Below are positions 13,035-37,876 of a stretch of DNA of 44,854 nt, one piece after another. The position numbers and the translations under genes are program-made. The DNA is taken from contig JAAUQD010000010.1 of assembly GCA_012032815.1 (NCBI GenBank), forward strand, positions 1 to 44,854. Direction: 5' to 3'. Position 1 is the stretch's first letter. Each line of letters opens with the position of its first letter. The notes beneath the pieces were generated by a model. It was not told the DNA's origin and searched no databases. It saw only the letters and a program-made list of their open reading frames with translations. This stretch comes from Flammeovirgaceae bacterium (lineage in GTDB: Bacteria > Bacteroidota > Bacteroidia > Cytophagales > Cyclobacteriaceae).

Positions 13035-14898
13035 TTAACACAGGAATGTTCACCCGGTGTCGAACGGTATCCACGGTGGTTCCAAAAATTAAGTCTTTGA
13101 TGAATGTGTGACCATGCGCTCCCATGACCAGCAGATCGGCATCAAAATCTTTAACGATTTCCGGGATCTTGCGTTTTGGACTTCCATGACCAACCTTCAT
13201 GGTGACCGCATAGTTCTGCTCCTTCAGTTGAGTAACATAATTTTGCAGAGCGGATTTATCTTCTCCTGTTTCAAGGTCGGCAATTTCGCTTCCGTACACC
13301 ATCGCGCCCGCTGATTCCACCACATGGATGAGTCTATACTCCGCATCCCTACCACCTTGTGCTAATGCACTTCGAATGGCCAGGGAGTCGATTGAACTAA
13401 AATCTATACAGATGGCAATCTTTTTATAAACAGGTTTGTCGATACCTTCCAACTGAATAGCTGTACCATGTGGAATTTTAATCTCTTCTTCTTTTTTGCC
13501 AAACATAGGCTTAAAGGTAATATAAGCCAGAAGGAATGCCGCACCTATGCAAATCGGAATAGCGGTAGCATAGATGATCCAGGGCTGATCCGTTGCCGCA
13601 AGCCATCCGTTAATTTCATTGATAACGAGTTGGCCGTTCAGGATGATAATGATTAACGCGATTAACCAGGCTAAAATTTTAACCCATAGTTTAATAGCGA
13701 ATTTTCCCATCTTAATTTTGTCGCTTGTGAAATGAATGAGTGGTATAACGGCAAATCCAAGTTGCAGACTTAATACTACCTGGCTGAAAATTAACAGCGT
13801 TCCTGTTTCGCTCTCGCCATATATAAGAATAACTACGTATGCTGGGATAATGGCGATGATCCGTGTGATTAATCTTCGCAACCAGGGAGCGATCCGTATA
13901 TTAAGATAACCCTCCATCACAATCTGGCCAGCCAGTGTTCCGGTAATGGTTGAACTTTGACCTGCGGCAATTAACGCAACTGCGAACAGGATAGGAGCCA
14001 TGTTGGTGCCCACCAATGGTGCAAGAAATTTGTAGGCATCCTGAATTTCAGAAACTTCATACATCCCTGCTTTAAAAAATGTAGAGGCAGCTAACACCAG
14101 TATTGCTGAATTGACAAAGAAAGCAGCGTTTAGCGCAATAGCTGAATCAATAAAATTATATCGAATGGCTGACAGCAATCCTTTTTCACTGGTATCAATC
14201 CTTCGGGTTTGAACAAGCGATGAATGTAGATAAAGATTATGCGGCATCACGGTAGCTCCAATAATCCCGATAGCGATATAAAGAGCCTGATCATTTGGGA
14301 TAGATGGAATAAATCCTTTTACCAATTCTCCCATATCCGGTTTTGCCCAGAACATTTCAAAACAAAAAGCCACACCGATGATGGCAACAAGAGCAATAAT
14401 AAAAGCCTCAAGTTTTCTAATGCCGTAACTCTGCAGAACCAAAATGAGAAGGGTGTCCATGACCGTCAGTGATACCCCCCAAATTAATGGAAGTCCAAAA
14501 AGAAGTTGCAGACCAATGGCCATTCCCAATACTTCGGCAAGGTCAGTGGCAGCTATGGCTACTTCTGCCAGAATCCACAAACAGAAATTGACAACCGGAT
14601 TATAGGTTGCGCGCGATGCCTGTGCAAGATCAAGTTGACGTACAATACCGAGGCGGGCACTTAAACTTTGCAGTAGGAGTGCCATCAGGTTCGACATCAG
14701 CAGCACCCAGATCAATGTATACCCAAACTGGCTACCACCGGCTATATCGGTAGCCCAGTTGCCGGGATCCATATAACCCACACTCACTAAATAGGCGGGG
14801 CCTAAAAAGGCCAATAGTTTTCTCCAGCCTTTCTTTTTTGAAGGATCTACTGAGGAGTGAACTTCACCTAAAGATTTTCGTTGATTCGGCTGGGACAT
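13018..14898 (-). CDS. mntH: Nramp family metal (Mn/Fe) transporter fused to a UspA domain
   Basis: A 626-residue fusion. Residues about 1-470 are an Nramp/MntH transporter with about eleven helices, the helix-1 motif DPGNW and the helix-6 motif MPHNLYLHSS, both of which bind the metal. A short linker leads to a C-terminal universal stress protein domain (about 490-626) with the ATP-binding signature GAHGHTFIKDLIFGTT. Nramp proteins import Mn2+ or Fe2+ with protons. The Usp domain may tie transport to nucleotide state. The start follows the mntR stop by one base, so the pair is coupled and co-regulated. Ordinary MntH is about 410-440 residues, so the extra 150 or so residues are a true fusion, in frame. 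Confidence 0.92.
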   Translation of the reverse strand: MSQPNQRKSLGEVHSSVDPSKKKGWRKLLAFLGPAYLVSVGYMDPGNWATDIAGGSQFGYTLIWVLLMSNLMALLLQSLSARLGIVRQLDLAQASRATYNPVVNFCLWILAEVAIAATDLAEVLGMAIGLQLLFGLPLIWGVSLTVMDTLLILVLQSYGIRKLEAFIIALVAIIGVAFCFEMFWAKPDMGELVKGFIPSIPNDQALYIAIGIIGATVMPHNLYLHSSLVQTRRIDTSEKGLLSAIRYNFIDSAIALNAAFFVNSAILVLAASTFFKAGMYEVSEIQDAYKFLAPLVGTNMAPILFAVALIAAGQSSTITGTLAGQIVMEGYLNIRIAPWLRRLITRIIAIIPAYVVILIYGESETGTLLIFSQVVLSLQLGFAVIPLIHFTSDKIKMGKFAIKLWVKILAWLIALIIIILNGQLVINEINGWLAATDQPWIIYATAIPICIGAAFLLAYITFKPMFGKKEEEIKIPHGTAIQLEGIDKPVYKKIAICIDFSSIDSLAIRSALAQGGRDAEYRLIHVVESAGAMVYGSEIADLETGEDKSALQNYVTQLKEQNYAVTMKVGHGSPKRKIPEIVKDFDADLLVMGAHGHTFIKDLIFGTTVDTVRHRVNIPVLIVREK

Positions 14899-34539: not shown

Positions 34540-36479
34540 ATGAATATTAAGGTAACGTTACCAGATGGTACACAACGTGAATACCCAAAGGGTATAACCG
34601 GATTTGAGATTGCAAAAAGTATAAGTGAGGGATTGGCAAGAAATGCAATGTCCATTGAAGTAAATGGCGAGATATGGGATTTGAGCAGAGCTATATCTAC
34701 GGATGCTTCCATTCGAATATTTACGTGGAATGATAAAGGCGGGAAGTATGCATTCTGGCATTCGTCTGCACATGTAATGGCCGAAGCACTGGAATCACTT
34801 TACCCGGGCGTGAAATTTGGAATCGGGCCTCCCATCGAAAATGGATTCTATTATGATGTAGATCTTGGAGATAAAGATTTTGGAGAAGATGATTTGCTTG
34901 CCGTAGAAAAGAAAATGATTGAACTGGCCCGACAAAATAATTCGTTTACCAGAAAGGAAGTTTCTAAGAAGGAGGCTGTCGATTATTTTGAAAAGAAAGG
35001 TGATGAATATAAGCTGGAGCTTCTCAAAGACCTGGAAGATGGAACCATTACATTTTATCAACAAGGAAATTTTGTTGACCTCTGCCGGGGTCCTCATATT
35101 CCAGGTACCGGATCGATAAAAGCTGTCAAATTATTAAATGTTGCTGGCGCATACTGGCGAGGTAATGAGAACAATAAAATGCTCACACGCATTTACGGCA
35201 TTACTTTCCCAAAACAAAAAGAATTGGAAGAGCATCTCATGATGCTTGAAGAAGCAAAAAAGCGAGATCACAGAAAACTGGGAAAGGAACTGGAGTTGTT
35301 TGCATTTTCTGAGAAAGTAGGGATGGGGCTGCCTTTGTGGTTGCCGAAAGGTACGATTCTTAGGGAGCGACTGGAGCAATTCATGCGTAAAGCACAAATA
35401 AAAGCAGGATATGATCCGGTGGTTACTCCGCATATTGGAAGTAAATCATTGTACGTAACATCCGGCCACTATGAAAAATATGGCAAAGATTCATTTCAGC
35501 CTATTCATACTCCGGATGAAAGCGAGGAGTTTTGCTTAAACCGATGAACTGCCCGCATCATTGTGAGATTTACAATGTGAAACCGAGATCCTATCGCGAT
35601 TTACCTATACGGCTAGCGGAGTTTGGAACAGTATACCGTTACGAACAGAGCGGTGAGTTACATGGGCTTACCCGTGTCCGGGGCTTCACACAGGATGATG
35701 CCCATATTTTTTGCAGACCCGATCAGGTTAAAGATGAATTTATAAAAGTCATTGATCTGGTATTGCACGTTTTCAATTCTTTAGGATTTGAAAATTACAC
35801 CGCTCAGGTGTCATTGCGCGATCGGGAAAATAAAGAGAAGTACATGGGTGCAGATCATCTATGGGATCGGGCCGAAAAGGAAATACAGGAGGCTGCCGAT
35901 GAACGTGGCTTGAAAACGGTTGTGGTAAAGGGTGAGGCCGCTTTTTATGGTCCCAAGCTTGACTTCATGGTCAAAGACGCGCTTGGCCGCAGTTGGCAGT
36001 TAGGTACAATCCAAGTCGACTATCAGCTTCCGGAGCGTTTCGAATTGGAGTATGTAGGGTCAGATAATCAAAAACACCGGCCCGTGATGATCCACAGAGC
36101 ACCTTTTGGTTCCATGGAGCGTTTTGTAGCGGTACTCATTGAACACTGTGCCGGCAATTTCCCTCTTTGGTTGTCCCCAGATCAGATTGCTGTGCTTCCC
36201 ATTTCTGAAAAGTTTAATGAATATGCTGTGAGCGTTCTGGACGACTTAAAGGAGCATGACATAAGGGGGTTTGTGGACGACCGTGATGAGAAGATTGGCC
36301 GTAAGATCAGAGATGCAGAAGTAAAAAAAGTGCCTTTTATGCTCATCGTGGGGGAGAAGGAGGCTACTGAAGGAAACGTGGCGGTCCGCAGGCATGGAAA
36401 AGGAGACCAGGGATCTGTCACGCTTGACGAGTTTAGGGATGAGTTCCTTAAAGAAACAGCTGTCCCGAACCTGCCATAG
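34540..36479 (+). CDS. thrS: Threonyl-tRNA synthetase (frameshifted into two ORFs)
   Basis: ThrRS charges tRNA-Thr. Domains in order: TGS (1-60), editing domain with [10 protein letters not shown] (zinc-binding-like HxxxH), class II catalytic core, and C-terminal anticodon-binding domain. Motif 2 is [27 protein letters not shown] and motif 3 [13 protein letters not shown]. The first ORF ends at 35547 and the second starts at 35532. One missing T in a T-run near 35530-35533 explains the break: restoring it gives [14 protein letters not shown], the zinc-site region. Joined length is about 646 residues, as in E. coli (642). First gene of thrS-infC-rpmI-rplT. Confidence 0.96.
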
Positions 36480-36543: not shown

Positions 36544-36593
36544 CACCCTGTTTGTCAAAAAGGCAGACTTATTTAGTAAACTAACCCCTGTAA

Positions 36594-37189
36594 GTGGCAA
36601 TTTATTCCGGTAACAGACGGCCCTATCAAAGAGGTTTCCGTCCGAGAGTTGTAGAAGAACCGTATCGAGTTAATGAAAGAATAACTGCACCGCGAGTTCG
36701 CGTTGTGGGTGAAAATATCAAAGTAGATGTTTATCCGGTGGCTGAAGCCATTAAATTGGCTGAAGCGCAGGGATTAGATCTTGTGGAGATATCTCCCAAT
36801 GCAGATCCACCGGTTTGCAAGGTTATAGATTACTCTAAGTTTAAATACGAACAGAAGAAGAAACAAAAGGAAATAAAATCGAATGCTCAGAAAACGGTGG
36901 TTAAAGAGATGCGATTTGGCCCCAATACTGAAGAACATGATTTTAACTTTAAGTTAAAGCATGCCACCAGTTTTTGCAGGAAGGTTCTAAAGTGAAAGCG
37001 TATGTTCACTTTGTAGGTCGTTCGATTGTTTATAAAGAAAGAGGAGAGATTTTGCTATTAAAATTTGCACAAGCTCTCGAAGATTATGGAAAAGTGGAGT
37101 TGTTTCCAAAGCTTGAGGGTAAGAGAATGTATATGATGATTGCCCCCAAGCCAAATGCTCCGAAAAGTAAAAAAGTAGAAAAGAAATAA
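36594..37189 (+). CDS. infC: Translation initiation factor IF-3 (frameshifted into two ORFs)
   Basis: IF-3 binds the 30S subunit and monitors start-codon pairing. The N-terminal domain contains [68 protein letters not shown]. The second ORF supplies the C-terminal domain. A missing base at about 36967-36975 (C or T) splits them; with it the text reads [18 protein letters not shown] or the same with S for Q. About 198 residues. The start is GTG 36594, with an ATT codon two codons later; E. coli infC uses AUU for autoregulation, so the start deserves a check. Confidence 0.95.
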
Positions 37190-37194
37190 AGTAT

Positions 37195-37395
37195 ATGCCA
37201 AAGATAAAAACGAAGTCAGGGGCTAAGAAGCGTTTTAAAGTTACTGGTACAGGTAAGATCAAACGCAAAAAAGCGTATTTAAGACACATCCTGACAAAAA
37301 AAGGAACTAAGCAAAAGAGAAGACTGGGCAACTCAACTGTAGTTAAGAAAGTTGATGAGAATAATATTCGCCCAATGCTTCCCTATGCCGTGTAG
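37195..37395 (+). CDS. rpmI: 50S ribosomal protein L35
   Basis: A 66-residue basic protein, [46 protein letters not shown], the classic L35 sequence. It sits six bases after infC and 90 bases before rplT, in the usual infC-rpmI-rplT order. Ends in [17 protein letters not shown]. Frame intact. Confidence 0.98.
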
Positions 37396-37401
37396 TAAGG
37401 T

Positions 37402-37475
37402 GTGACTGAAACGCAGTCACCTATGTTTAACCCGGTTTTTGGCTAAAGTCTCGAAAGAGCGCCAACAACCAAAAA
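37402..37475 (+). promoter_or_regulatory. Structured leader between rpmI and rplT, candidate L20-binding element
   Basis: Two stem-loops fill the 90-base gap before rplT. The first has perfect arms GTGACTG (37402-37408) and CAGTCAC (37414-37420) with a 5-base loop. The second pairs TTTTTGG (37436-37442) with CCAAAAA (37469-37475) and encloses a TGGC/GCCA stem and a CTC-GAAA-GAG tetraloop. L20 regulates its own operon by binding mRNA in several bacteria; whether this leader does the same is inference. Confidence 0.5.
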
Positions 37476-37485
37476 TTAATATTTT

Positions 37486-37830
37486 ATGCCACGTTCGGTA
37501 AACAATGTAGCGTCTCGCGCCAAAAGGAAGCGGATACTAAAAAAGGCCAAAGGATATTTTGGCAGAAGAAAAAATGTTTGGACAGTTGCCAAGAATGCTG
37601 TTGAAAAAGGAATGGTGTATGCGTATCGCGATCGCAAAGCCAGAAAAAGAGATTTCCGTGCCTTGTGGATTCAGCGGATTAATGCAGGCGCCAGGCTTCA
37701 TGGAATGTCCTACTCAGAATTAATGGGTAAACTCAAGAAATCAAATATTGACTTGAACCGTAAAGTTTTAGCTGATTTAGCGATGAATCATCCACAAGCA
37801 TTTGAAGCTGTGGTAAAGCAAACAAAATAA
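37486..37830 (+). CDS. rplT: 50S ribosomal protein L20
   Basis: L20 is an early assembly protein of the large subunit and a translational repressor of its own operon in E. coli. The 114-residue sequence opens [42 protein letters not shown] and contains [23 protein letters not shown], all typical. A structured spacer precedes it and a strong terminator follows 20 bases after the stop. Frame intact. Confidence 0.98.
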
Positions 37831-37849
37831 TTTCTGAAAGATTAATGGG

Positions 37850-37876
37850 AAGGGGCTTTGAGCCCCTTTTTATTTT
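37850..37876 (+). terminator. Rho-independent terminator of the thrS-infC-rpmI-rplT operon
   Basis: AAGGGGCT (37850-37857) pairs perfectly with AGCCCCTT (37861-37868) around a 3-base loop, followed by TTTATTTTA. It is positioned right after rplT. Confidence 0.88.

Follow-up and report, generated by a model that had tools for sequence, protein, structure and literature searches.

A conserved RNA structure between rpmI and rplT of Bacteroidia as a probable translational operator for ribosomal protein L20

In Escherichia coli, ribosomal protein L20 represses the infC-rpmI leader (PMC6962249). The operator lies 5' of rpmI and controls rpmI and rplT together, the latter by coupling, and it comprises two L20 sites including a pseudoknot (Lesage 1990; Guillier 2002, 2005, cited in PMC6962249). 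The L20 leader of Bacillus and relatives (Rfam family RF00558) is found 5' of infC instead and acts by transcription termination (PMC6097659). A further type, the Deltaproteobacterial L20 r-leader motif, is predicted only; it carries an rRNA-like AA dimer and consecutive G-C pairs, while its scaffold and phylum differ from those of the element described here (Eckert and Weinberg 2020, PMC7247131). Published L20 leaders are reported to have consecutive G-C pairs and an AA dimer in common with rRNA (PMC7247131).

Few ribosomal-protein leaders have been characterised in Bacteroidota, and no L20 leader is listed for this phylum by Eckert and Weinberg 2020 (PMC7247131). The only described Bacteroidota L20 leader that we found in the literature is HMP2_39, a 49-bp candidate directly 5' of L20, mostly from Alistipes (Bacteroidota), which was considered a possible leader (Fremin and Bhatt 2021, PMC8040213). 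Translation in this phylum proceeds without Shine-Dalgarno sequences. Initiation is favoured by adenines at -12/-13 and by little structure around the start, and bS1 was proposed as reader of the A-rich stretch (PMC6847099).

The DNA analysed here (the window) is a stretch of 44,854 nucleotides from a Flammeovirgaceae bacterium, which carries the operon thrS-infC-rpmI-rplT in this order on its + strand. Between the end of rpmI (37395) and the start of rplT (37486) lies a spacer of 90 nt with two hairpins. The conserved motif spans 37424-37475, and hairpin 2 (37434-37470, with a GAAA loop) is its core. The features are as follows.

37195-37395, + strand: rpmI, ribosomal protein L35, the gene 5' of the element (ORF and L35 sequence)
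37399-37422, + strand: hairpin 1, variable, typical of the genus of the window and outside the conserved motif (fold; genus comparison)
37424-37432, + strand: single-stranded flank UGUUUAACC with nearly invariant ACC (column frequencies, 99 sequences)
37434-37443, + strand: 5' strand of the outer helix, ending GGC (fold and covariation)
37444-37447, + strand: asymmetric loop ending in the invariant AA (37446-37447), the proposed L20 contact (AA in 97-99 of 99 sequences)
37448-37460, + strand: inner hairpin with the pair G37448-C37460, one-base bulge U37449, stem CUC/GAG and GAAA tetraloop 37453-37456 (fold; covariation)
37461-37470, + strand: 3' strand of the outer helix, GCC first, its last base at -16 from the rplT start (covariation; spacing)
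37471-37475, + strand: AAAAA at -15 to -11, on the A-rich initiation element of Bacteroidota (leader base frequencies)
37486-37830, + strand: rplT, ribosomal protein L20, presumed ligand and regulated gene (ORF, L20 sequence, relatives)
37848-37871, + strand: intrinsic terminator 3' of rplT, the operon end (terminator scan)

Two genes of the operon appear split. Both thrS (34540-36479; overlapping ORFs 34540-35547 and 35532-36479) and infC (36594-37189; overlapping ORFs 36594-36995 and 36974-37189) show an apparent one-base frameshift, likely an indel error of the draft genome in each case. The gene pair 31950-33635/33632-34456 has a similar look. In addition, a terminator-like hairpin is located between thrS and infC (36550-36568).

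The motif consists, in this order, of UGUUUAACCCG and a helix with GGC/GCC at its end, followed by a loop whose last two bases are AA, a G-C pair and a bulge of one base; then come a variable hairpin and AAAAA, the latter about 10 nt 5' of the rplT start. Spacers from 85 loci have it in common just 5' of rplT: UGUUUAACCCGR is followed by a helix strand with UGGC at its end, by nnUAAG and a variable hairpin, and then by CGCCA, the second helix strand and YCAAAAA. Nearly invariant among 99 sequences are the ACC before the helix, the AA of the loop with the G-C pair next to it, the central G-C pair within GGC/GCC and the A-run 3' of the helix. The G-C pair adjoining AA is present in 96 of the 99 (G37448-C37460 in the window) and stacks on a C-G, U-A or U-G pair, and the inner stem covaries strongly. 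Flavobacterial and Bacteroides-like versions have UAGC/GCUA in place of UGGC/GCCA, which is a compensated change. The window itself holds a short member of the motif: its loop comprises 4 nt compared with 6 nt in the consensus, its inner stem has 3 pairs plus the G-C pair, and its outer helix contains one mismatch, U37438 opposite C37466. In the rplT leaders of four other loci (L062, L065, L066, L068) the inner hairpin is enlarged by a long repeat-like insertion, while the motif core is intact.

A preliminary description of this spacer had pointed to two stem-loops, one of them with a GAAA tetraloop, and folding of 37390-37490 indeed gives these two hairpins, 37399-37422 and 37434-37470. The fold has an MFE of -23.7 kcal/mol (z -2.36), with 4 of 200 shuffles equally good; the region of hairpin 2 folded alone reaches -12.9 kcal/mol (z -2.51; 2 of 200 shuffles). 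Single-sequence folding of the spacer is a modest gain over chance, and it is the comparative evidence that decides. Even an unfitted alignment (plain MAFFT of 45 sequences, no structural fitting) supports the outer helix: 78.7% of its cells are paired, compared with 69.9% in shuffles and 16-52% with slid partners, 53 cells against 21 in shuffles are changed on both sides, and the covariation score is 0.308 against 0.167 shuffled and at most 0.123 for slid partners. A covariance model, R1, was built from 22 sequences and gave 74 leader matches. In alignments fitted to the structure, which consequently lean towards it, the covariation score amounts to 0.489 for 69 distinct sequences (0.189 shuffled) and to 0.615 for 99 (0.221 shuffled), with slid partners at 0.120 or below in both.

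The preliminary description had tied its reading to compensatory changes in the stems among relatives. Such changes are present, since 386 cells are changed on both sides among the 99 distinct relatives, compared with 124 in shuffles, and the unfitted alignment agrees; paired cells make up 86%, against at most 45% for slid partners. The best 10 of 2,278 column pairs by APC-corrected mutual information in the 99 sequences are all predicted pairs. No other long-range covarying pair stands out in this alignment, and no pseudoknot covariation was found in it. On a nucleotide tree of rplT, about 218 double changes from pair to pair are inferred by parsimony, compared with 72 changes to a mismatch. 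A covarying partner of the flank was also looked for in the 99 sequences and none was found. Pairing of UGUUUAACC with codons 4-6 of rplT, attractive in the window, was rejected, as the codons do not track changes of the flank.

To delimit the spread of the motif, relatives were compared through their L20 protein, starting from the genome of the window (202 contigs) and extending to its genus (63 genomes), family (119) and order (195). A second covariance model, R2, was derived from 72 sequences and applied at E <= 0.001 with strict filters, which scored only 20-26 candidates per genome. Under these settings a match was obtained in 90 of 195 order genomes, in 85 of 247 genomes from the class and in 16 of 198 from a phylum sample, with a single match per matching genome. 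The motif is found across the class Bacteroidia; some class members (e.g., loci L209, L222, L226) are without it. In all 27 class loci that were fetched, rplT follows directly 3' of the motif, and about 45 matches of the order compared by coordinates place it approximately 10-15 nt 5' of this gene. When the rplT locus was searched alone in 30 genomes without a strict match, a leader match was obtained in 11 at E <= 0.01 and in 14 at E < 0.1. These weaker matches include members of the families that carry the RNA Bacteroidales-1, and those in Bacteroidaceae suggest that tractable laboratory hosts carry the element.

The link to rplT holds as well in a wider set of genomes. An exact-pattern scan of 84,980 species genomes returned 72 matches, 67 of them directly 5' of rplT (65 found automatically, plus L163 and L188, whose rplT starts MRSVN and MSRSVN). 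Of the remaining five, one is cut off by the locus end. The other four, from Acidobacteriia, Burkholderiaceae, Pseudomonas and Planctomycetota, are not followed by rplT and correspond to the few chance matches expected. No second copy of the motif was found in the window, where the only other match, at 13039, scores 13 bits.

How does this element compare with the E. coli operator? Both reside in the same operon, and the infC-rpmI spacer of E. coli is predicted to fold as AAGGC-CUUCAA-G-U-helix-C-GCCUU. The predicted core is therefore shared: the helix has GGC/GCC at its end, the 6-nt loop has AA as its last bases and is followed by a G-C pair, a bulge of one base and an inner helix, and a C is joined directly to GCC. 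This E. coli stem may correspond to site 2 of the operator. The core geometry was fixed by R1 before the E. coli leader was examined, whereas the scan used stem-length cut-offs that were set with knowledge of the E. coli fold; with these, the strict geometry is found a single time in 6.85 kb of E. coli sequence (both strands), precisely at the infC-rpmI spacer, and dinucleotide shuffles of that leader show it in 9 of 20,000 cases. The same scan is narrow and misses most members of the motif. About 84 Bacteroidota loci yielded 15 matches, of which 13 (counting L047) fall in the rplT leader, and rplT regions of Pseudomonas, Burkholderiaceae, Planctomycetota and Acidobacteria yielded none. With R2, neither the E. 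coli leader nor 23S rRNA scores above noise, so that the link to E. coli is purely one of shared geometry. Differences are evident too: the Bacteroidota element is a single copy between rpmI and rplT, compared with two L20 sites 5' of rpmI, and it has no Shine-Dalgarno sequence, other flanks and a shorter inner hairpin.

A similar likeness exists to the L20 site of 23S rRNA, H40/H41. In relatives of the window this region reads CUAAGGU, with GCUAAGG as in E. coli and AA before G; in both, AA immediately precedes a G whose pair opens the next helix (CAGCUAAGGU). At the level of sequence and pairing, the motif in the 99 sequences has an AA dimer and consecutive G-C pairs as 23S H40/H41 does. However, the rRNA strand opposite AA carries GA, while in the Bacteroidota leader C joins GCC directly. 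As part of a class-wide operator, the module shared with E. coli would, on balance, be either ancient or reinvented under the same protein.

From the database perspective, no Rfam 15 family for the element was found in the window or in 20 relatives. RF00558 shares the presumed ligand and the operon with the Bacteroidota element, which has no terminator, and gives no hit in the spacer at E values up to 5 (gathering score 58.7 bits); its only weak match, at 19.6 bits, is the terminator 3' of rplT. The preliminary description had suggested that a Bacteroidota counterpart would be a new leader class or variant. The suggestion stands in so far as Rfam 15 lacks the element, yet the element is probably not wholly unreported, as the description of HMP2_39 agrees with it in gene, phylum and length (PMC8040213). 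HMP2_39 is probably the same element seen in one lineage. As one of 3,161 automated predictions it came with no link to the L20 site and no class-wide scope, and it is not in Rfam 15. Consequently, it represents a prior partial report, while the class-wide definition of the element and its connection to the L20 site are new here.

Taken together, structure, covariation, linkage to rplT, spacing to the start and the E. coli-like predicted geometry lead us to propose, with good confidence, an L20-binding translational operator in the rpmI-rplT spacer, immediately adjacent to the A-rich -12/-13 initiation element. Among 142 leaders, the A-run starts 14-17 nt 5' of AUG in 137, and A is found at -12 in 96% and at -13 in 99%. 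Thus the outer helix ends exactly where the initiation element begins, at -16 in the window. We infer L20 as the ligand, repression, a block of initiation and an action on rplT alone. L20 in excess over 23S rRNA would bind the end of the GGC/GCC helix together with AA and the G-C pair and would hold the outer helix shut. The 3' strand of the shut helix, lying against the A-rich element and inside the region required by the 30S subunit, may then exclude this subunit and block initiation at rplT. With rRNA plentiful, L20 would be drawn to 23S H40/H41, the helix would open and rplT would be translated. In this way L20 would very probably stop its own production through the rplT leader once it is sufficient, acting on rplT alone where the E. 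coli operator controls rpmI and rplT together. The broader proposal, a class-wide operator of Bacteroidia that has the L20-recognition module of E. coli on a different scaffold, is wired to a non-Shine-Dalgarno initiation region and lets L20 control rplT alone, we consider somewhat better than an even prospect.

Should the helix work without a ligand, it might insulate rplT from ribosomes leaving rpmI, or fix rplT translation or mRNA stability with no protein sensor. Its position is intercistronic and beside the initiation region, a place at which structure influences initiation in Flavobacterium (PMC6847099), and is in line with such a role. However, a hairpin of this kind has no need for a class-wide invariant unpaired AA, G-C pair, one-base bulge and ACC flank, nor for the geometry of the L20-repressed leader of E. 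coli, and we therefore regard it as unlikely. Slightly less probable still is a regulatory RNA read by another factor, be it L35, IF3, bS1 or an unknown protein. While infC and rpmI share the operon and an A-rich stretch, a possible bS1 target, lies directly 3' of the element, the latter is found 10-15 nt from the rplT start only and not 5' of infC or rpmI, with no second copy in the window, and its geometry points to L20.

The operator for L20 proposed here would act on translation. An attenuator or terminator of transcription, as in the L20 leader of Bacillus (PMC6097659), appears very improbable, although a lax terminator scan flags hairpin 1, with the tail CUAUGUUUAA. The conserved hairpin is followed by an A-run and not by a T-run, and no uninterrupted T-run was found 3' of either spacer hairpin. 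The preliminary description was hence right that these stem-loops are not terminators; that of the operon is at 37848-37871. Hairpin 1, moreover, is not conserved beyond the genus. A stable hairpin 5' of the motif is present in 28 of 30 leaders of the genus, with unrelated sequences, compared with 31% of leaders outside it, and the flank UGUUUAACC is conserved also in relatives without hairpin 1. A GGU...ACC hairpin 5' of the motif was rejected, as its 54 occurrences barely exceed the 44 expected from shuffles. Hairpin 1 thus belongs to the genus level and stands apart from the conserved element. The preliminary description had taken the spacer with both stem-loops as a possible L20 autoregulatory RNA; for hairpin 2, which is conserved, covarying, tied to rplT and E. 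coli-like in its core, this view gains support, whereas hairpin 1 falls outside. Chance folding of an ordinary spacer, with which the modest single-sequence z-scores would agree, is already refuted by the covariation and by class-wide conservation.

If the proposed L20 operator is real, Bacteroidota, a phylum of gut, marine and soil bacteria, would have their first defined L20 feedback element, and it would show how a protein-RNA switch controls translation without a Shine-Dalgarno sequence to mask. As an independent copy of the E. coli geometry, it would furthermore isolate the target of L20 (AA, G-C pair and GGC/GCC helix end) and make rRNA mimicry testable.

Two other RNAs are found near rplT. 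Bacteroidales-1 (RF01693), an RNA possibly linked to L20, was tried as an identity for the spacer motif and rejected: it matches a 6S-like RNA 3' of rplT in some Bacteroidaceae and not the spacer. Its distance from the 3' end of rplT is about 120 nt in two genomes of Bacteroidaceae type and about 700 nt in a third (L211:1962-2137, L216:1205-1382 and L213:2553-2731). Besides, HMP2_3043, a 57-bp candidate 5' of L20 in Treponema (PMC8040213), suggests yet another L20 leader in Spirochaetota.
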